Below are positions 9,422 through 54,600 of a stretch of DNA of 64,000 bases, piece by piece. Position 1 is the stretch's first letter. Every line of letters starts with the position of its first letter. The DNA is taken from positions 7,782,501-7,846,500 of the forward strand of contig NZ_JAQNDO010000001.1 of the NCBI RefSeq assembly GCF_028369105.1, written 5' to 3'. Under the pieces are notes generated by a model. It was not told the origin of the DNA, searched no databases, and was given only the letters and a program-made list of their open reading frames with translations. Position numbers and translations under genes: made by a program. Origin of the DNA: Polyangium mundeleinium. Lineage in GTDB: Bacteria; Myxococcota_A; Polyangia; Polyangiales; Polyangiaceae.

Positions 9422-9630
9422 ACAGATCCCGCTTCCCGCCTCCGCTTCCGCTCCCGCTTCCGCTTCCGCTTCCGCTTCCGCTTCCGCTTCCGCTTCCGCT
9501 TCCGCTTCCGCTTCCGCTTCCGCTTCCGCTTCCGCTTCCGCTTCCGCTTCCGCTTCCGCTTCCGCTTCCGCTTCCGCTTCCGCTTCCGCTTCCGCTTCCG
9601 CTTCCGCTTCCGCTTCCGCTTCCGCTTCCG
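9415..9630. repeat. Hexanucleotide microsatellite (CGCTTC)n, about 29 perfect units
   Basis: From about 9455 to 9630 the sequence is an unbroken run of CGCTTC units, preceded by a few imperfect ones and the flank acaaacagatcccgctt. It reads open in several frames (Ser-Ala or Gly-Ser repeats), but it has no start context, so I do not call a gene. Similar shorter elements occur at 4.4, 6.4, 10.2, 21.4 and 45.1 kb. Copy number is likely to vary between strains. Confidence 0.95.
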
Positions 9631-23043: not shown

Positions 23044-23136
23044 ATGCATCCATCTCCGAGAGGCGCGCCCGCCGAGCAATACGGCGCGACGGTCGAGTGA
23101 GGCGGCACGTCGGAAGGGCTGTGTCGACGGAGCATC

Positions 23137-23612
23137 CGGCCCTTGCCGGCAACCGCAGCGAGCCCGTCGACGAAGCCCCCGACCGTTGCCGGCAACCGCG
23201 GGCGACCATGTCGACAAAGACCCCAGCCGTTGCCAGCAACCACGGCGAGCATCTCGACCAAGCCCCCGACCGTTGCCAGCAACCGCGGACGACCATGTCG
23301 ACAAAGACCCCAGCCGTTGCCAGCAACCACGGCGAGCATCTCGACGAAGCCCCCGATCGTTGCCAGCAACCGCGGCGAGCATCTCGACCAAGCCCCCGAC
23401 CGTTGCCGGCAACCATGGCGACCATGCCGACAAGGACCCCACCCGTTGCCGACAAGCACGGCGAGCATCTCGACAAAGACCCCGACCGTTGCCAGCAACC
23501 ACGGCGACCATGCCAACAACCCCCCCGACCGTTGCCAGCAACCGCAGCGAGCCTGTCGACGGAGCCCCCGGCCCTTGCCGACGAGCCCAGCGAGCATGCC
23601 TTCCTCGCGCCC
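23137..23612. repeat. Array 1: 11 tandem units of 43-44 bp with a GTTGCCRGCAAC dyad
   Basis: TTGC of each dyad begins at 23142, 23185, 23229, 23272, 23316, 23359, 23402, 23445, 23488, 23532 and 23575. Most units contain GTTGCCAGCAAC or the perfect palindrome GTTGCCGGCAAC, and the intervening ~31 bases (gagcatctcgac..aagccccgac) are also conserved, in two or three alternating variants. Because 43 is not a multiple of 3 the array reads open in several frames, none with gene-like context. It fills the gap between the convergent TPR gene and binding-protein gene. Confidence 0.95.
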
Positions 23613-45106: not shown

Positions 45107-45269
45107 CGGGCGCGAAGGTAGTCGAGGGGGGACGGGAGCGGAAGCGCGAGCGCGAGCGCGAGCGAATTCAGGTCGTCGTCAGTCCCCCATCGGCCGCGGA
45201 AAGGGCGAAGGGACTCGGCGGCGGCGGATGCGTCGAGCTCTGCCTTCAAGAACGCGGCCATTTTCGTGT

Positions 45270-48200
45270 TCATACCGGATCCGAAGCCTTTGGGGTCATG
45301 GGTTTGCCGCCGCCGAAGCTCACGTAAAGCGCCGGCAAGACCAGGAGGGTGAGGAGCGTCGAGGAGAGGACCCCGCCGATGACGACTGTCGCCAGCGGAC
45401 GTTGCACCTCCGCGCCCACCCCGGTGTTGAGCGCCATCGGCAAGAACCCGAGGCTCGCGACGAGGGCCGTCATCAGGACCGGACGAAGCCTCCGCTCCGC
45501 GGCCTGCTCGACGGCCTCGCGTACGGGCATGCCGGTCGCGAGGAGCTGCCGCACGGTCGACACGAGCACCATGTCCGCGAGGACCGAGACCCCGGACAGG
45601 GCGACGAAGCCCACGCCCGCCGAGATGCTGAACGGAAGCCCGCGCAGCCACAACGCGACGATCCCGCCAATGGCGGCAAACGGAACGCCCGTGAACACCC
45701 GCGCCGCGTCGAGGAGGCGCCCGTAGGTGAAATGAAGCAGCACGAAGATCAGCGCGAGCGCCGCGGGCACGACGACGAGGAGCCGCCCCTGGGCGCGCTC
45801 GAGGTGCTCGAACTGGCCGCCATAACGCACGTAATAACCGGACGGCAACACGACCTTCTCGTCGATGCGAGTGCTCGCCTCCTGCACGAACGAACCCACG
45901 TCCCGGCCTCGCACGTTGGCTTGCACGACGATCCGCCGTTTGGCCCACTCCCGTTGGATGGAGGAAGGCCCCTCGACGAGGCGCAGGTGGGTCACGCTCG
46001 AAAGGGGGATCTGCGTGCCATTCGCGGCCGTGATCAGGATGCGCCCGACAGCTTCGACGTCGGTCCGATATCGATCGTCGAGCCGCAGCGTGATCGGGAA
46101 GCGTTTTTCCCCCTCCTGCATCTGGCCGACCTCACGCGTCCCGAGCGACGCGACGACATCCAGCACCTCGTGCGCCGGAATCCCGTGCCGCGCAATCGCC
46201 GCGCGATCCACCTCGACCTGGAGCAGCGGTTGTCCCGTCACTTGCTCCGTCACCACGTCGGCGGCGCCCGGAATCGCCTTCAGGACCGCCTCGATCGCAC
46301 GCGCCTTCTCCTTCAGGATCTCGAAGTCTTCCCCGAAGAGCTTCACCCCGACGTCCGATCGAACCCCGGCGATCATCTCGTTCACCCGCATCTCGATGGG
46401 CTGGGTGAACACCATTCGCATCCCGGGCAAGCTTTCGAGCTCGCCCTGCATGGCACGCACGAGCTCGTCCTGCGTCGCCCCGCGCTTCCATCGATCCCGC
46501 GGCGTGAGCGTGACGAACACGTCCGAGAGCTCGATCCCCATCGGATCCGTGGCCACCTCCGCCGTGCCCGTGCGCGTCCAGACGCGCTCGATCTCGTCCG
46601 GAAACTTCTCCCGCAGCGTCTTCTCGATCTGGAGGCCATACCGCGTCGACTCTTCCACGGAGACACCCGCGAGGCGGATCGTATTGACCACGATGGCGCC
46701 TTCATTCAGCCGCGGGACGAACTCCGAGCCGAGCCGCGTGGAGAGGGCCATGGCCCCGCCCAGCATCGCCACGGCCGCGGCCATCACGAACCGTCGCCGG
46801 CGCAGGGCGAACTGGAGCGCCGGTCGATACACGCGCAAAAGTGCCCGCACCACCACGTTCTCCCGCTCCACGATCCGGCGCGGCAGGAGGAAGCTCGCCA
46901 GCACCGGCATCAACGTGAGCGAGAGCAACATCGAACCCGCGAGCGCGAAGATCACCGTCAGCGCCATCGGCCGGAAGAGCTTTCCCTCGACCCCTTCGAG
47001 GAAAAGAATCGGCAGATAAACGATCATGATGATGAGCTCGCCGAACATCGTCGGTTTGCGCACTTCGAGCGCCGCTTCCCGCACGACTTCGATCACAGGC
47101 CGCGCGCCCTTGTCCTCCGCGAGCCGCCGCGTCGCGTTCTCGACCATGATCACGGAGCTGTCGACGACGAGGCCGAAGTCGATCGCGCCGAGGCTCATGA
47201 GGCTCCCCGCGATCCCGAACCGCAGCATGAGGTTCGACGCGAAGAGCATCGAGAGCGGAATGGCCGAAGCGACCACGAGCCCCGCGCGCAGGTTGCCGAG
47301 GAAGACGAAGAGGACCGCGATGACGAGGATCGCGCCTTCGAGGAGGTTCGTTCGAACCGTCCGTAGTACGTGGTCCACGAGCTCCGTGCGGTCGTAGACC
47401 GTGGCGACCTCGATCCCGGGCGGGAGGCTCTTCTTGATCTCGTCGAGCCGCACCTTGAGCCGGCTCGTCACGTCATGGCTGTTCTCGCCCATCAGCATGA
47501 AGCCGAGACCGAGGACCACTTCGCCTTTCCCATCCGCCGTCACCGCGCCGCGCCGGATCTCGCGCCCCTCGACGACCTTCGCCACGTCGCGGACCCGGAC
47601 CGGCACGCCCTCGTGCGCCGTGATCACCATGTCCTCGATGTCGCTCGGGCGCGTCGCAAGGGCGATCCCCTGGACGAGCGTCGCTTCGCCGGCGCGATCG
47701 AGGCTGCCGCCGCCGACATTCGTGTTGTTGTGCTCGATCGCCTCGGCGAGATCCGCGAGCGTGAGGCCACGGCGCTGGAGATTCTTGGGGTCGACGACCA
47801 CGTGGATCTGCCGCTCGTCGCCGCCCCAGGCGTTCACCTCGGCGACGCCGCGGACCGAGCGGAGCTGCGGCTTGACGATCCAGTCGTGCGCGGTGCGCAG
47901 CTCGCTCAGGCTCTTGTCCTCGCCGGACACGATGTAATGGAAGACCTCGCCGAGCCCCGTCGCGACGGGCCCGAGGGTCGGCCGCTCGATCTGCGGCGGA
48001 AGCGAGACGCTTTGCAGCCGCTCCATGGCGACCTGCCGCGCGAGGTAAATGTCCGTCCCGTCCTCGAACACGACCGTCACCTGCGACAGACCAAATCGCG
48101 AGATCGAGCGCACCTCGTCGAGCCCCGGGAGCCCCGCAATGGCTTGCTCGATCGGCGCCGTGATCTGCCGCTCGATCTCCAGCGGCGAGAGCGCGGGCGC

Positions 48201-48356
48201 CACGGTGTTGATCTGCACCTGCACCGGCGTCGTGTCGGGGAAGGCGTCGATCGGCAGGCGTCGAAAAGAGAGCGCCCCCAGGATCGCGACCACGAGCGTC
48301 GCGAGAAGGACGAGGGTGCGGTGGCCGAGCGACCACGTGATGATGCGACTCAGCAT
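45270..48356 (-). CDS. CusA/CzcA-type heavy-metal efflux RND pump
   Basis: A 1028-residue inner-membrane proton-driven pump of the heavy-metal RND group, close to the usual ~1040. The start MLSRIITWSLGHRTLVLLAT gives helix 1, the first periplasmic loop follows, and GAIDFGLVVDSSVIMVENAT in helix 4 carries the acidic proton-relay residue of metal-exporting members. The second half repeats the layout (LARAFTGVP-like region, SVLADMVLVSTVRQLL). It pairs with the adaptor gene 6 bases upstream. The metal (copper/silver or cobalt/zinc/cadmium) cannot be fixed by eye. No outer-membrane TolC-type gene lies here. Confidence 0.95.
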   Translation of the reverse strand: MLSRIITWSLGHRTLVLLATLVVAILGALSFRRLPIDAFPDTTPVQVQINTVAPALSPLEIERQITAPIEQAIAGLPGLDEVRSISRFGLSQVTVVFEDGTDIYLARQVAMERLQSVSLPPQIERPTLGPVATGLGEVFHYIVSGEDKSLSELRTAHDWIVKPQLRSVRGVAEVNAWGGDERQIHVVVDPKNLQRRGLTLADLAEAIEHNNTNVGGGSLDRAGEATLVQGIALATRPSDIEDMVITAHEGVPVRVRDVAKVVEGREIRRGAVTADGKGEVVLGLGFMLMGENSHDVTSRLKVRLDEIKKSLPPGIEVATVYDRTELVDHVLRTVRTNLLEGAILVIAVLFVFLGNLRAGLVVASAIPLSMLFASNLMLRFGIAGSLMSLGAIDFGLVVDSSVIMVENATRRLAEDKGARPVIEVVREAALEVRKPTMFGELIIMIVYLPILFLEGVEGKLFRPMALTVIFALAGSMLLSLTLMPVLASFLLPRRIVERENVVVRALLRVYRPALQFALRRRRFVMAAAVAMLGGAMALSTRLGSEFVPRLNEGAIVVNTIRLAGVSVEESTRYGLQIEKTLREKFPDEIERVWTRTGTAEVATDPMGIELSDVFVTLTPRDRWKRGATQDELVRAMQGELESLPGMRMVFTQPIEMRVNEMIAGVRSDVGVKLFGEDFEILKEKARAIEAVLKAIPGAADVVTEQVTGQPLLQVEVDRAAIARHGIPAHEVLDVVASLGTREVGQMQEGEKRFPITLRLDDRYRTDVEAVGRILITAANGTQIPLSSVTHLRLVEGPSSIQREWAKRRIVVQANVRGRDVGSFVQEASTRIDEKVVLPSGYYVRYGGQFEHLERAQGRLLVVVPAALALIFVLLHFTYGRLLDAARVFTGVPFAAIGGIVALWLRGLPFSISAGVGFVALSGVSVLADMVLVSTVRQLLATGMPVREAVEQAAERRLRPVLMTALVASLGFLPMALNTGVGAEVQRPLATVVIGGVLSSTLLTLLVLPALYVSFGGGKPMTPKASDPV

Positions 48357-48362
48357 CCCTTC

Positions 48363-49754
48363 TCAGTCGGCGTCGCAGCAGCCGGCGCCGATGCTCTCCT
48401 TCAACGTCTCGGTCTTCAGCAGGAAGCTGCCCGTCGTCGCGACGTCCTCGCCGGGGCGTATGCCTTTGCGGATCTCGACGAGGTTGCCCTCGCGAAGGCC
48501 CATCTCGACGCGCCGCGCCTCGTATTCGTCCTCCGCGAGCCGAATGAAGACGAGGTGCACGTCCTTCGCGCGCTGCACGGCCGCGTCCGGGACCATGACG
48601 CTCGCGCGCGCCGCGCCGACGTCGACACGCGCCCGCCCGAACATATTGCCTCGCAACACCCCATCCACGTTTTCCAGCGGAACACGCGCCCGGACCGTGC
48701 GCGTCGCGAGGTCGATCTGCGGGCTCAGATACGTGATCTTCCCGCGGAAGGTGCGCCCCACGAGCCCGTCGACGTCGAGCGTCACGGATTGCCCCACGGC
48801 GACCGCCGCGAGCTCGGCCTCCGGGACGTCGAGCTCCGCCCACATCGCGGACGTGTCCACGACCTCGAAGAGCATCTCTTCGAGCCCGACGAGCTTGCCC
48901 ACGGTGGCGCTTCGCTGCGTCACGACGCCGTCGATGGGCGAAGTGAGCGTGTACGAACCCCCTGCCCCGGCGCCCGCCCCGATGATGGAGAGCGCCGTGG
49001 CGAGCGCCGCTTGCTCTGCCTTGGCGGTTTCGAGCTCCTGCTCTGCCGCGAGCACGTCCTTTTCGGAGCTAAAGCCCGACTTCTGGAGCGCCGCGAGCCG
49101 CTCGTGGTTCTTCTGCGCAATGCCGACGCGCGCCCGCGCGGCCTGGAGCTTGGAGCGGTCCGCCCCGACCTCCGCGCTGTCGAGGACGGCGAGCGCATCC
49201 CTCTTTTTGACCTGCGAGCCGATGTCGACCTTCATGGCCCGCACGACGCCGGGCGCCCGCGCATTGATGTGTGCGAGGCGCGTGGCGTCGTACACGACCC
49301 GGGCCGTGACGAGGATGCCGCCCGCGTTTTTCCGCTCTTCGGCCTTCACCGTCTGGATGCCGGCGAGCCGCGCGGTCTCCTTCGTCTTGAAGCGGACCTT
49401 GGTCCCATCGGCGGGCGCTTCCGCCTCGGGGGCGCTCTTGCCTCCGCTCTTGCCGCTCACGTCGGCGGCGGGGCGTCCGCCGCGCGTTGGGTGGCAGACC
49501 GGGCAAAACGACGCCGGAAAGCCATGCTCGGCGCACCAATCGCCCTTCGCCTGGAACACGGCCGCGAGCTTCGGGTGGCACTTGGGACACACCACGTCGA
49601 GCACGCCGTGCGCGCAGAGCTTCCCTTCGCCGTCCGCCTTCGCGGACGCCGGCTGCGTGGAGCTCGCGGGACCCGCGGGCGACGCCTTCGGATCTCGGCC
49701 GCACCCGGCGAGCCCCAGGAGGAGCGCCAGGAGGGCCACGAGGAGGGGACGCAC
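48363..49754 (-). CDS. CusB/CzcB-type RND periplasmic adaptor with Cys-rich N-terminus
   Basis: A 463-residue membrane-fusion lipoprotein (LAGC, Cys18). After a linker, residues 45-90 carry LCAHGVLDVVCPKCHP and DWCAEHGFPASFCPVCHP, two Cys/His modules likely to bind metal. The adaptor body follows: barrel-sandwich hybrid with HINARAPGVVRAMKVDIGSQ, a coiled-coil hairpin (KLQAARARVGIAQKNHERLA), lipoyl half SYTLTSPIDGVVTQRSATVG and beta-barrel. The tail ends GCCDAD. The start is GTG at 49754, 2 bases from the upstream stop. It links the pump to an outer-membrane channel and may pass metal to it. Confidence 0.92.
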   Translation of the reverse strand: MRPLLVALLALLLGLAGCGRDPKASPAGPASSTQPASAKADGEGKLCAHGVLDVVCPKCHPKLAAVFQAKGDWCAEHGFPASFCPVCHPTRGGRPAADVSGKSGGKSAPEAEAPADGTKVRFKTKETARLAGIQTVKAEERKNAGGILVTARVVYDATRLAHINARAPGVVRAMKVDIGSQVKKRDALAVLDSAEVGADRSKLQAARARVGIAQKNHERLAALQKSGFSSEKDVLAAEQELETAKAEQAALATALSIIGAGAGAGGSYTLTSPIDGVVTQRSATVGKLVGLEEMLFEVVDTSAMWAELDVPEAELAAVAVGQSVTLDVDGLVGRTFRGKITYLSPQIDLATRTVRARVPLENVDGVLRGNMFGRARVDVGAARASVMVPDAAVQRAKDVHLVFIRLAEDEYEARRVEMGLREGNLVEIRKGIRPGEDVATTGSFLLKTETLKESIGAGCCDAD

Positions 49755-49755
49755 G

Positions 49756-50091
49756 TCAGCTCCCCTTGGGAGGTCGAACGATCTTCAGGCCCGGGTTGCA
49801 CTTCAAGCATTGCGACTCGGGGAGGCCGTGCTCGGGGCACCAATCCCCCGTGGCCTTGAAGGCGGGGACGAGCTCGGGGTTGCACCGGGTGCACTGCGAC
49901 TCGGGGACCGCATGCTCCCCGCACCAGTCCTCGTGCGAGCCGGGCTTGACGGTGCTCGGCGCGTGGGCGCCGTCCTGCTTCGCGGACGCGGCCGCGGCCG
50001 GCTCGGGCTTGGCCGTCGAGCCCACGTCCTTGGAGCACGCGGCGAGGGAGAGGGCGGCGAGGAGCGGAAGGATCAGGGAACGATGCATCAT
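49756..50091 (-). CDS. Small Cys/His-rich lipoprotein, probable metal-binding partner
   Basis: A 111-residue lipoprotein (SLAAC, Cys19) with two copies of one module: DWCGEHAVPESQCTRCNP and DWCPEHGLPESQCLKCNP, about 34 residues apart. The same WCxEHxxPxSxCxxC module appears in the adjoining adaptor. By position and ligand content it is a candidate periplasmic metal carrier comparable in role, not sequence, to CusF. The start is at the first of two ATGs (50091/50088) after GAAGAGG. It is translationally close to the adaptor gene. Confidence 0.8.
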   Translation of the reverse strand: MMHRSLILPLLAALSLAACSKDVGSTAKPEPAAAASAKQDGAHAPSTVKPGSHEDWCGEHAVPESQCTRCNPELVPAFKATGDWCPEHGLPESQCLKCNPGLKIVRPPKGS

Positions 50092-50219
50092 GATGAGCCT
50101 CTTCGAATTCGTCTTTGCCAACTGCGGACATGTCGCCCCGCGCGCGCCACGAGAACGCGAGCTCGCGCGCCGGAACGACCGATCGATGGAGCCTCCTCCG
50201 GTGGTGCCGGGGGCTCCGA

Positions 50220-50681
50220 TCAGCAGTGGAAGACTTGAAGGGCGATGCAACGCTCCGCCGAGGAGCGTGGTCCTGCACGAGGGAGCGCGGGGCGAGCGAC
50301 GATCCGCGGCAATGGCGCGAGGTACCGGGATCCGCGCGGAGGGCCGAACGCGGCCGGCACCCCCTCGCCTGGGAGCGTCGTGACGGGCGCCGGAGGTACT
50401 TGCGGCAGCTCGACGCGCTTGTGCGCGGGGGGCAACTCGCCGACCTGATGTTCCTCGCAGCAGTCTTCTCCGACGCTGGGACCTTGGTCGTCCTCCGCGC
50501 CGTGGGCGGAGCAGTCGTCGGATTCGCAGGCGTGCTCGACGACCTCCTGGACCGCGACGCAGAAGTAGTAGCTCCGGCCGGAGAAGAACACGGCGAGCGC
50601 GACGACGGCGACGAGGAGCACCGCGAACACACGGCGAGGCCCAGGGGCCTGCGTGGAGAGCGCGAGGGCTCGGCGCGTCAT
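50220..50681 (-). CDS. Membrane-anchored Cys/His-rich protein at the head of the efflux operon
   Basis: A 153-residue protein with one membrane helix near the N-terminus (VFAVLLVAVVALAVFFSG) and a periplasmic part rich in possible metal ligands: CESDDCSAHGAEDD and GEDCCEEHQVGE. The rest is Pro/Arg-rich, with a last CIALQVFHC segment. I do not recognise a family. As the first gene of the metal-efflux unit, 128 bases upstream of the small lipoprotein, it may sense or bind metal. The frame could start elsewhere; 50681 is the first ATG before the helix. Confidence 0.55.
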   Translation of the reverse strand: MTRRALALSTQAPGPRRVFAVLLVAVVALAVFFSGRSYYFCVAVQEVVEHACESDDCSAHGAEDDQGPSVGEDCCEEHQVGELPPAHKRVELPQVPPAPVTTLPGEGVPAAFGPPRGSRYLAPLPRIVARPALPRAGPRSSAERCIALQVFHC

Positions 50682-50762
50682 CACGGGGCGGGAGCCTACC
50701 CGCGGCGGAAGAGCACGTCCAGGGTCGCGTTTCTGGGAGAGGACGCAAGGAGAGGTGCCGCC

Positions 50763-51249
50763 ACGCGTGCACGCGGGCAAGCCGGTCGACCCCGGACGAG
50801 GCCCATTGCACGCGCGTCGCATCCGCAGCGGAAGCGAGAAAAGCAGCGGCTGCGGAGCGCAGAAGCCCCTCCGCCAGGTGCGCGACGCGCCTTGCATGCA
50901 CGCAAAAAGCCCGAGGGCGGTCGCTCGGTGGGTGTTGCACGCGTGCAAGGCACACCAAACGATCTGCACAGCGTGCCTTGCACCTGTTCAAGGAACGTCG
51001 AGCCCGCGGCGCGGGAGCGCTTGCGTCGATGCAAACGCCGCCGTGACGTGGTCCTGTCGGCGTTTGCATCGACGCAAGCGCTCCGATCCCACCGTCACAG
51101 CCGCCTTTGCGCCGATGCATCCCCCGCTGTGCACATGTCCCGGTCGCCTTTGCGCCGATGCAAGGACGACCGCGCAAGCGGCACGCGCCCCGTCGCGCGC
51201 GTGCCGCAGCGGCCATCGGGACACGCGCGCGCATGTCGCATCGACGCAC
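50763..51249. repeat. Array 2: exact 43-bp period of TTGC-N6-GCAA dyads with unlike spacers
   Basis: Fourteen-base dyads TTGC-N6-GCAA start at 50892, 50935, 50978, 51021, 51064, 51107 and 51150, each exactly 43 apart (50978 reads TTGC..TCAA and 51107 ends GCAT). Weaker matches continue in phase at 50806, 50849, 51193 and 51236. The 29-base intervals share no sequence. Dyads 4 and 5 with their flanks form a 27-bp perfect inverted repeat (51014-51040 and 51058-51084). No credible gene lies here; the long frames on both strands come from lack of stops in GC-rich DNA. Confidence 0.9.
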
Positions 51250-51521
51250 GCGATTCCGGAGCGACGCGCCGCCGCGTGACGTCCCTCCCCTGTGTCCCAT
51301 GCGATGATTTCGCAAGGACGGGTTCCTGAACGCAACGCCGCCCCATCCGAGCGCGCACATGCCTTCGTGTGAAAGCACGAAATCGCCGCAGCCCTGCCGC
51401 GATGTTTTTTTCTTCCACACCTGTACGAACCGTCGAAACGTCCGCGATTGACGCAGCCCCCCCAAACCGCTTGTGCAACAGGGTGGCACATCGGCGCGTG
51501 TGAGCGCGGCACGTAGGCGCC

Positions 51522-51600: not shown

Positions 51601-54600
51601 ATGCGCAGCTTTTTGAATCGTGGTCCCACGGCACGAACGGCGGGTCTCTTGACCGCGCTCCTGTTCGTGGCGGGGCAAGGATGCGCCACGAATACAGGCG
51701 ACGGGGAAGAGAATACGGGCGAGAGCAAGGAGGCCGCAAAGGCGACGACCTCGTTCCTCTCGGCCGACGAGCCGACCTACCGGTTCTACTGGGGCGAGGA
51801 GGAGGAAGAGGAAGAAGAGGAGGAAGAGGAGGAGGAAGAAGAGGAGCAGGAGCTCGAGGAGGGCGACATCTACCGTGTCATGAACAATGGCACCCTCCTG
51901 AACCTCAACGCGTATCGCGGCCTGCAGGTGATCGACGTCAGTGACGTGACCGCGCCCAAGGTCGTCGGCCAGCTCCAGGTGGCCGGCGCGCCGGTCGAAA
52001 TGTACGTCGACGGGACACGCGCGATCCTCTTGATGAACGGCTGGAACGGCTTCAAGGGCAGGCCGAACAGCCTCGAAGTCGACCAACTCTCGGGCAGCAC
52101 CGCCCTGCTCGTCGACATCTCGAACCCGTCAAAGCCCGTCGTGCTCTCGCAGCACGCCGTGCCGGGCAACATCCAGACGAGCCGCTACGCGAACGGCGCG
52201 ACCGAGGACGCGCTCTTCATCGCGTCGAGCTACTACGACTGGTTCATCAATGCCCAGAACGACTGGGAGTGGGTCATGGGCAGCACGGTGAAGAGCTTCG
52301 ACGTCGGCCCGACGGGCTTGACGGAGAAGAGCGAGTTGCCCCTCGGCGGCTACGTCTCGGCCATTCACGCGGAGAACGAGGTGCTCCTCGTGGCGCGCCA
52401 GAGGGACTGGTGGTCGCAACATCAGAGCGACGTCGCGATCATCGACATCTCCGACAACGGCGGCACGATGGTCCAGCGCGACGAGGTGACCGTCAATGGC
52501 TACATCCGGTCGCAATTCCACATGGACTACCGGAACGACCAGCTCCGGATCTTCTCGGGCCCGCAATGGGGCTGGGGCCAGCATAGCTACCTCCAGACGT
52601 TCGACGCGACGAACCTCGACAACGTCACGCCCGTCGACTCCGTGCCCTTCGGCGCGGACATGAACCTCTTCGCCGCGATCTTCCTCGACGATCGGGCGTT
52701 CGCCGTGACGTTCCGGAATGTCGATCCGTTCCACGCCTTCTCGATCGATGCGAACGGCCACGCCGAGGAGAAGAGCGAGTTCATCGTCTCCGGCTGGAAC
52801 GACTTCTTCCGGCCCGCGTTCGACAACACGCGCCTCGTCGGCATCGGCGTCGATACGCAGAACGGCCGCAAGCTCGCCGTCAGCCTCTACGACATCACGG
52901 ACCTCGAAAACCCGAACCCGCTGGTCGCGCGCAAAGAGGTGCAAGGCGATGAGAACGGCTGGAACTGGTCCGAGGCGAACTGGGACCACCGCGCATTCAG
53001 CGTGCTCCACAACGCAGTGAACGTGCAGGCGCCGACGGGCGAGACCGAGACGGGCCTCGTGCTCCTGCCCTTCGCCGGCTACAAGTACACGGACGACACC
53101 TGGAGCAACTGGACCTACGAGTCCGCCGTCCAGATCTTCACGTTCTCGGCGTCGACGATCACGCGTCGCGGCATCATGAACCATCCCGACTCGGTCCGTC
53201 GCACGTTCAAGCTCGACGCGACAAACGGGGCGAACCTGTCCGAGACGCAGCTCCGCATCTGGGATCAATCGAACCTCGACGCGCCCGAGAAGGTCGGCGA
53301 GCTCAGCGTGGCGCCGGATTACACGAAGGTCTGGGTCTACGGCAATTACCGCGCGCGCCTGCGCAGCCCGGACAACGAAGATTACTGGTACTGGTACGAT
53401 CCGAGCGCGAAGGCGAAGGTCGACATCATCCGGAACAACCAGCCCGTCGACACCGGCACGCCCGCGGCGACGATCGAGGTCCCGGCGAACGCGCAGCATT
53501 ACCAGGTGGATGATCTGTTCGTCGCCGTGTCCGGCAAGTGGCTCTCCTACCCGACCTACGAGACGACCCTCAAGGTCTGGGATCTCTCGAACCCGAAGCA
53601 CCCGGTCGAGCGTGGTACGCTCGTCACGACGGAGCTGCCGAGCGACGCCTCTGCTTATTACATCGCCACGGGCGTCGTCGGGAACAAGACCCTCGGATTC
53701 GTCCAGACGAGCCAGGTCACGGAACCGGTGGAGCTCGATATCTGCTCGAGCTACCCCACGAGCTATTCGAGCTGCAACGGCGCGGCGGGCTGCTTCCTCG
53801 CCGGCAGGAAGAACTGCACGAAGGTCAACGGCAGCCTGTCCTGCAACGGCGGCTTCGCCGAATGCGTCATCACGAACAACGAGACGACCTGCACGCCGAT
53901 CACCCCGGAGCAGGGGCAGGTGTATGAATACTGCTACGGCGCCTGGTATGGGACGGAAGGCGAGCACACCCGGCAAAAGGCCCAGGTCAAGCTCGTGAAC
54001 CTGTCGAACCCCTCGCAGCCGACGATCCTGCCCGCGATCGACGTGACGCCGGCGCAGGACGAGGAGTTCGTCGCGATGAGCGGGCACGACGACGACCTCT
54101 ACATCACCGTCAAGAAGCCGGAGCAGGTCGCGGGCGACACGCGGCCGCATGCCCGTTATTTCCTGAAGAAGCTCGAACTGAAGAAGCCCGCGCAGCCGAA
54201 GCTCGAAGCAGGGATCAACGTGCCCGGCACGATCCTCGCGAAGGATGGCTCGACGATCTTCACGCGGGATCAGGTCTGGGGCCCGCAGTACATCGAGACC
54301 GCCGTCTCGAGGCTGAAGCTCAAGAGCAACAAGGCGGAGCTCGAAAACAGGCACCAGTTCGCGAACCGCATCGTGCGCGAGCTGGTCGTCGACGACGACA
54401 GGCCCGTCGCCACGCACGACCTCGTGTGGTACCCGAGCCACTCCCAACGGTTCAGCATCCTCAAGCCGAGGAGCGGCAACAACGATACGTTCCAGGTCCT
54501 GTCGACCGTGAATCGCCCGGCAAACGCGATCTTGCTCAGCGCCGCCGAGCGCCGCGCCTTCTTCTACCTGTACGGCGGCGTCCTCATGGCGGACCTGGAC

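Follow-up and report, generated by a model that had tools for sequence, protein, structure and literature searches.

Phased palindrome arrays with a 43-bp pitch in Polyangium genomes and their likeness to the sopC site of plasmid F

A non-coding array of 14-bp palindromes (TTGC-N6-GCAA dyads) set at an exact pitch of 43 bp was found in a 64,000-nucleotide stretch of the Polyangium mundeleinium genome (the window, at 7.78 to 7.85 Mb of the 13.25-Mb genome, G000). Arrays of this kind, here called TTGC arrays, have outer dyad bases that change slowly and are depleted of insertions and deletions (indels). They occur at several loci, in gene gaps of any orientation, and their motif is nearly restricted to them. 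TTGC arrays are real and constrained, and they occur in part of a single genus. We give roughly even credence to the reading that the TTGC array is a chromosomal, sopC-like series of phased sites to which a dimeric DNA-binding protein binds, probably with an architectural or anchoring function.

Dyads, pitch and distribution of the TTGC arrays

The seven dyads of the window (50892-51163; Table 1) follow one another in steps of exactly 43 bp, as a preliminary description made from the sequence alone had reported. Five are perfect over the eight outer bases (TTGC and GCAA) and two have one mismatch, a TCAA end at 50978 and a GCAT end at 51107. The stretch 50763-51249 was shuffled 3,000 times under a first-order Markov model, and over pitches of 20 to 80 no shuffle gave an in-phase chain of more than two dyads. 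Single dyads with at most one mismatch number 24 across the window against 18.35 expected, a count reached by 12 of 100 shuffles; it is the phasing and not the abundance of single dyads in the window that stands out.

The decayed in-phase units that the same description placed on both sides could be upheld on the right, where those at 51193 and 51236 lie in a stretch that aligns with the array of a congener, but not on the left, where the matches at 50806 (5/8) and 50849 (3/8) are unconvincing. Paralogous copies have a unit ahead of their first dyad that resembles the right part of 50849-50891. The whole array (L042:6367-6768) shares 83.9% identity by BLAST with the syntenic array of the congener G085 (L047). 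The spacers had been said to share no sequence. Phase is held while they change, but the mean pairwise identity of the six window spacers is 0.389 against 0.296 after shuffling (0 of 1,000 shuffles attain 0.389), and this residual identity is a sign that they descend from a single 43-bp unit.

Table 1. Features of the window: the TTGC array and its parts, and a second 43-bp array
Feature	Coordinates	Strand	Evidence or score
Whole array, in phase with syntenic array of congener G085	50866..51267	no strand	BLAST, alignment, paralogous copies
Dyad 1 TTGCATGCACGCAA	50892..50905	no strand	8/8
Dyad 2 TTGCACGCGTGCAA	50935..50948	no strand	8/8
Dyad 3 TTGCACCTGTTCAA	50978..50991	no strand	7/8
Dyad 4 TTGCGTCGATGCAA	51021..51034	no strand	8/8
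Dyad 5 TTGCATCGACGCAA	51064..51077	no strand	8/8
Dyad 6 TTGCGCCGATGCAT	51107..51120	no strand	7/8
Dyad 7 TTGCGCCGATGCAA	51150..51163	no strand	8/8
Degenerate in-phase dyad	51193..51206	no strand	5/8; inside stretch conserved in G085
Degenerate in-phase dyad	51236..51249	no strand	6/8; inside stretch conserved in G085
Long inverted repeat over dyads 4 and 5 (27-bp arms, 17-base centre)	51014..51084	no strand	read from sequence; DNA and RNA folds
Second 43-bp non-coding array, other sequence family, 10.6 units	23122..23579	no strand	TRF

The dyad consensus, drawn from 145 dyads that are distinct but not independent (many are homologous copies), is TTGC-RY-SS-RY-GCAA (TTGCRYSSRYGCAA), 14 bp long. 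The purine/pyrimidine class is kept in 96 to 100% of the dyads at positions 5, 6, 9, and 10, and the two central positions are G or C in 93 to 94%. Exact TTGCRYSSRYGCAA sites occur 33 times in the 13.25 Mb, against 7 for the reversed pattern. All but one of these (32/33) fall in arrays and the remaining site is inside an open reading frame (ORF), which leaves no solitary site of promoter type in the whole genome.

Complementarity exceeds expectation between positions 6 and 9 (0.68 versus 0.51) and between positions 7 and 8 (0.78 versus 0.44). This would be accounted for if the dyads acted as stems, either in a structured RNA transcript or in an array of DNA hairpins (cruciforms), as would the folding of 50892-51192 above shuffles (z of -5.1 as RNA and -5.2 as DNA). 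However, these folds are dominated by the inverted repeat at 51014-51084, which is peculiar to the window copy, its arm complementarity being lost in paralogues (alignment, by eye). Positions 5 and 10 are without covariation (0.44 paired versus 0.47 expected), and half-sites therefore fit better than a hairpin. The 15 Rfam matches at E ≤ 1 (13 microRNA families and two small RNAs) all lie below gathering scores, so that a known Rfam RNA was rejected. We consider a structured RNA or cruciform very improbable; as judged from base composition and covariation, the dyad would consist of half-sites recognised by a dimer.

Nine TTGC arrays were located in the genome, near 3.016, 4.070, 6.461 (partial), 7.385, 7.833 (window), 8.039, 8.050, 8.060 (partial), and 8.473 Mb. 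The six from 6.461 to 8.060 Mb have common spacers in the same order and are thus dispersed copies of one element, whereas the remaining three have mostly different spacers. Over the whole genome, 43-bp dyad pairs number 69 at up to two mismatches (4 with the reversed pattern) and 46 at up to one (0 with the reversed pattern); this count had been proposed as a test capable of refuting the phased array, and the excess leaves that claim in place. A few of the 69 pairs fall outside arrays (for example, 6198414 and 6469405). Another dispersed repeat at 6.20 to 6.47 Mb (G000:C1:6198414, 6248395, 6301767, 6316432, and 6469405) matches the dyad-pair pattern with one or two mismatches.

Three of the five congeners (G085, G087, and G088) carry TTGC arrays of their own. 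Dyad pairs with at most one mismatch number 46 in G000, 14 in G085, 26 in G087, 11 in G088, two in G089, and none in G086, and the two of G089 sit within another 43-bp array (L060). In a search of 108 genomes of the family, 10 had a match, five of them genomes of other genera with one dyad pair each. A three-dyad pattern (≤3 mismatches) was sought in an even sample of 282 Myxococcota genomes from a larger group, which does not contain the congeners G085 to G089; the search gave 52 matches in G000 and one each in three other genomes, and no TTGC array was seen in the 281 sampled genomes besides G000.

When the gap between dyads was left free from 14 to 44, six Polyangium genomes yielded 46 exact pairs, 35 of them with a gap of exactly 29. 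The others have gaps of 28 (four), 31 (one), and 19 (six); the six gap-19 pairs are one similar sequence found once per genome, and the gap-31 pair and one of the gap-28 pairs are part of a different repeat, at 2.29 Mb. Conservation of the pitch, which had been proposed for comparison among strains and was examined here across species, was borne out, but steps of 42 bp occur three times in congener arrays, so the pitch is not absolute. The Polyangium genomes also share a further family of dispersed repeats (L043:10825-11115 and like stretches in L044, L045, L049, L050, L054, L055, L058, and L060).

Constraint on dyad and pitch

Constraint was assessed in three cross-species pairs of corresponding arrays. 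Differences fall at 13 of 208 outer dyad positions, 32 of 156 inner positions (six per dyad), and 152 of 752 spacer positions (Fisher p = 4e-7), which puts the rate of change of the outer bases in these pairs at about a third of that of the spacers. Because the arrays had been found by their dyads, the best adjacent unit pair of each array was dropped, which left outer differences at 13 of 160 (Fisher p = 1.7e-4); on the further assumption that 20% of neutral changes are hidden by requiring intact dyads in G000, p is 0.002. The spacers differ by about 20%, against 5 to 11% for the remaining intergenic DNA of those syntenic blocks.

Gap openings in the array pairs amount to 3 per 197 substitutions where about 31 would be expected, the yardstick being seven syntenic comparisons of intergenic DNA outside the arrays (94 gap openings per 590 substitutions). 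With identical BLAST scoring applied to both, at differing word sizes, the figures are 4 gaps per 172 substitutions and 27 expected. The deficit of indels in the arrays is thus about seven- to tenfold. Given the slow outer bases and this deficit, both dyad and pitch appear to be constrained.

In the preferred reading, each 14-bp dyad would take one dimer, with half-sites about one helical turn apart. The next dimer would sit 43 bp on, on the same face of the helix (about four turns at 10.75 bp per turn). The bound array would then form a nucleoprotein anchor or architectural site, like sopC with SopB, and not an operator for a neighbouring gene. We infer that a protein binds, that it does so as a dimer, and that the arrays have a chromosomal role in anchoring, folding, or segregation; the phased binding array for a dimeric protein put forward in the preliminary description is in this respect partly supported.

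Origin, surroundings and the wider class of 43-bp arrays

A phase that is kept while the intervening DNA changes had been taken as a sign that ordinary tandem duplication was not at work. This argument fails. Near-identical units in some arrays (those at 3.016 and 8.473 Mb and that on C106 of G087) imply that 43-bp tandem duplication was recent there, and the arrays grow by such duplication and spread. The unusual feature is the later rarity of indels and outer-dyad changes, not duplication itself. In a tree of 12 copies, both syntenic pairs stay together (support, 94/94 and 99/97), each with the G085 member on the longer branch, and the four copies of G088 group together (87/95), suggesting that the element was amplified within the G088 lineage.

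The presence of arrays at syntenic loci was examined by locating a flanking gene and then searching its contig for dyad pairs. For the 7.385-Mb array, no pair with ≤1 mismatch was found on that contig in G085, G086, G088, or G089, and in G087 there was no exact pair (at ≤1 mismatch, 19 of the 26 pairs were listed). The 8.473-Mb array has a counterpart in G087 and G088 and none in G085, G086, or G089; the 3.016-Mb array has one in G085 and G087 and none in G086, G088, or G089. An empty insertion site with a target duplication was sought and not found, the flanks being too rearranged. Directly to the left of the window array, a predicted resistance-nodulation-division (RND) efflux operon (ACR_tran, HlyD_D23) occupies about 5.7 kb (45164-50862). 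This stretch is missing at the syntenic place in G085 (L047), and the array marks a variable junction.

The window array does lie between predicted divergent genes, as first noted, but this setting is not general. The 23 TTGC arrays (nine from G000 and 14 from congeners, syntenic copies counted separately) occupy nine co-directional, eight convergent, and six divergent gaps according to our own gene caller, which gave the syntenic pair L044a/L049 different orientation classes; all gaps of at least 500 bp in the sample divide into 53, 17, and 32, respectively. The idea of an insulator between divergent units is not supported, since other copies occupy gaps of every orientation. Among the 19 immediate neighbour proteins of the nine arrays in G000, 13 have Pfam families, which are functionally unrelated, and 6 have none; ParA, ParB, transposase, and Cas families are absent from these 19. 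An operator cluster regulating the flanking divergent genes would suit the position of the window array; however, 8 of the 23 arrays lie between convergent genes and the neighbour genes are unrelated. Moreover, four congeners keep the sequence just upstream of the right-hand gene with no array in the 1,200 bp examined. This gene has orthologues at 74 to 77% identity in four Polyangium genomes. We regard an operator cluster as very improbable and count the gaps of all orientations and the unrelated neighbours in favour of the anchor or architectural reading. Elsewhere in the window, a GAG-rich tract (51796-51852) corresponds to a glutamate run near the start of a beta-propeller protein, and about 33 copies of a CCGCTT hexamer (97% matches) occupy 9429-9630.

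All nine TTGC arrays lie in the half of the genome opposite a parS-like cluster at 12.90 Mb, which served as the origin marker; this was noticed after the fact, and counting 8.04 to 8.06 Mb as one array gives 7/7 (p = 0.008, likewise after the fact). The other 43-bp arrays lie in that half in 10 of 15 cases (p = 0.14). Origin markers disagree, the best DnaA gene being at 11.65 Mb, and sampled GC skew is noisy, with extremes near 0/13.2 and about 7.2 Mb. The location of the arrays is a lead only.

TTGC arrays belong to a wider class. Tandem Repeats Finder (TRF) was run on 77 stretches covering 1.53 Mb of G000 (60 roughly evenly spaced and 17 others, two of which overlap by 1 kb) and gave 49 non-coding arrays (period ≥14, ≥2.4 copies), with a period of 43 in 13, 21 in ten, 22 in two, 64 in one, and 43/87 in one. 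Among non-coding arrays with a period of at least 31, 13 of 18 have 43, mostly with unrelated units, and none of the 160 coding or mixed arrays of the same scan has 43 as its leading period. Coding sequence was rejected for the arrays, chiefly on a coding fraction of 0.00 in all 22 tested with our own gene caller, which may miss short genes; in the column entropy of the 12-copy alignment, period 3 has 3.1 times the mean power and ranks ninth of the ten strongest, which does not settle coding. In small samples of the congeners, one further 43-bp non-coding array was found in 200 kb of G086, one in 120 kb of G089, and none in 120 kb of G087. Two other genera (120 kb) yielded no period-43 array and one each of periods 21, 20, and 19.

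Unit profiles of 22 arrays (from G000 and congeners) are mostly unrelated (median z of 0.18 over 231 pairs), but some families recur across loci or species (for example, L094 with L110, and L112 with L167 of G086). Of 24 arrays, 7 have their second-best dyad axis at a distance of exactly 21.5 bp from the best one, where 0.62 would be expected when the core stays fixed and the other columns are permuted (p = 1.7e-6); among the TTGC arrays tested, this holds only for the window (p = 0.005), with p = 0.16 to 0.94 for L045, L038, L052, and L039. The second 43-bp array of the window (23122-23579) shows GTCGAC and GTTGCCRGCAAC dyads by eye that are not significant (19 of 60 permutations reach them), and it has a relative at about 6.91 Mb (L070:13490-13932).

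The class as a whole may represent a genus-level system of many phased palindrome-array families, unrelated in sequence and common in geometry (a dyad every 43 bp, often with a second axis at 21.5 bp), each with its own binder and serving as dispersed chromosomal anchors away from the origin. The 43-bp pitch would then have evolved independently in the F centromere, as the spacing at which dimeric helix-turn-helix (HTH) partition-type proteins build a stable complex on supercoiled DNA. We offer this as speculation and think it unlikely on present evidence.

The main rival explanation is a selfish or neutral satellite, though we lean toward doubting it. Under this explanation, a duplication mechanism sets a 43-bp unit on any sequence, recombination spreads the arrays, and dyads aid slippage or recombination without a host reader. 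The unrelated families that share a period of 43, the many 43-bp arrays without a significant dyad, the near-identical units of young arrays, the cluster of four G088 copies, the patchy presence at syntenic loci, and the lack of a family common to the neighbour genes scanned would all be expected from it. Neutral decay alone, however, leaves unexplained both the slow outer dyad bases and the shortage of indels in arrays with diverged spacers.

Several results weigh against a sopC-like set of binding sites. The indel yardstick scatters from 1.1 to 36.5 substitutions per gap, the pair L042/L047 alone is weakly significant (p = 0.04), and the orthology of L039/L051 is uncertain, since the alignment takes in just the array and a short flank. 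Spacer conservation has no helical periodicity of 10.75 bp (p = 0.38 for spacer columns); with all columns p is 0.01, arising from the dyads, and 0.44 when every period tried is taken into account. Of 22 arrays, 10 have dyads that score above every one of 60 column permutations; 7 of these are among the 17 arrays outside the TTGC family, and two TTGC arrays, L052 and L038, fail this test. Since the 43-bp families differ in sequence, the class as a whole cannot be put down to a single sequence-specific protein. Presence at syntenic loci is patchy among close species and G086 is without a TTGC pair (≤1 mismatch), so the array is not essential.

Either way, one preferred pitch across unrelated sequences makes the arrays of interest. 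Should they anchor the chromosome, they would be a novel type of site in a 13-Mb bacterial genome; should they be selfish, they reveal a satellite mechanism whose unit length is fixed.

Comparison with known systems

Several known elements were considered and set aside. Chromosomal parS, whose pattern we take to be GTTYCACGTGRAAC, occurs 4 times in G000, all at 12.90 Mb and none within an array. A CRISPR was rejected, as the conserved part is only 14 bp and variable and dispersed copies have homologous spacers in matching order; no Cas family stands among the 19 immediate neighbours, and no genome-wide cas search was made. A phage origin was rejected in view of the 50 viral stretches listed with the exact two-dyad pattern, each a single pair and none an array. 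Neisserial elements (dRS3 and Neisseria intergenic mosaic elements, NIME) resemble the TTGC arrays in that short inverted repeats alternate with unlike segments, but those segments vary in length, and we know of no fixed pitch among them.

Bacterial interspersed mosaic elements (BIMEs) are regularly spaced extragenic palindromes in which the segments between repetitive extragenic palindromes (REPs) can be unrelated and their lengths vary (PMC2817692, in excerpt). The likeness lies in dispersed extragenic palindrome arrays with possibly unrelated segments between them; in contrast to the variable BIME spacers described in that excerpt, the Polyangium pitch is fixed. A REP/BIME-type element mobilised by a REP-associated tyrosine transposase (RAYT) would explain the palindromes and their unlike spacers, but no Y1_Tnp gene (PF01797) was found in G000 or in G087, the congener with most dyad pairs (the family is present in 3 of the 6 genomes of the genus), and this explanation is barely credible.

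The Polyangium arrays have the features of a prokaryotic non-coding satellite, with a coding fraction of 0.00 in the 22 arrays and dispersed copies that keep the same spacer order. Dispersed non-coding long-repeat satellites are recorded in Leptospira interrogans (46, 37, and 69 bp) and Methanocella conradii (37 bp), two of 261 prokaryotic species surveyed (PMC6749651, in excerpt), and by that account the present arrays would add a rare case in a bacterium. They share with these satellites the dispersal of non-coding tandem-repeat families in a prokaryote. They differ from those in the excerpt in unit length and in that several unrelated families have one length, with a second axis at 21.5 bp in 7 of 24 arrays.

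The closest anatomical likeness is to sopC (parS_F), the centromere of plasmid F in a type Ia partition system. The preliminary description knew of no described element like the array, and sopC contradicts it: parS_F consists of twelve 43-bp tandem repeats that hold ten 16-bp inverted repeats (PMC6238139, in excerpt), which SopB (ParB_F) binds as a dimer (PMC6238139 and PMC9178275, both in excerpt). In both systems, palindromes stand at a 43-bp pitch in about ten non-coding units without indels. When sopC was taken from NC_002483, TRF gave a period of 43, 10.7 copies, and 0% indels, and its units read TGGGACCACGGTCCCA plus 27 bp, with the palindrome in nearly every unit. The 43-bp site was reportedly described in 1986. 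By titles and abstract openings, no description of chromosomal arrays of this kind was found in the literature among the matches listed.

The two systems differ in other respects. The sopC palindrome is the 16-bp TGGGACCACGGTCCCA, whereas the Polyangium dyad has 14 bp; the window array has tandem 43-bp palindrome units, but its consensus TTGCRYSSRYGCAA is not the SopB palindrome (TGGGACC..GGTCCCA). The sopC spacers are nearly identical (0.96 identity at lag 43), whereas those of Polyangium are divergent. Finally, sopC is a single site beside sopA-sopB on a plasmid, in contrast to nine dispersed chromosomal sites with no parA/parB operon adjacent among the 19 immediate neighbours (6 of them without a Pfam family). 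SopB, which itself matches PF18090, found no match as a query in 1.70 Mb of G000. ParB_N (PF02195) has 2 matches in G000 and 1 in the array-bearing G087. The best ParB_N gene of G000 is at 8.38 Mb (G000:C1:8383628) and the parS-like sites are at 12901665-12907539; a second ParB_N-containing protein of 738 codons (L098:9071-11284) lies about 10 kb from the 43-bp array L066:1670-1939.

The likeness to sopC is thus one of anatomy; membership in the sopC type is not established, the palindromes being different. A constrained chromosomal non-coding pitch equal to that of the F centromere raises the question of whether 43 bp is a general geometric optimum for palindrome-bound arrays. The anatomy is already known from a plasmid centromere, and what differs in Polyangium is the absence of par genes from the neighbours scanned, the dyad itself, the divergent spacers, and the dispersal over the chromosome.
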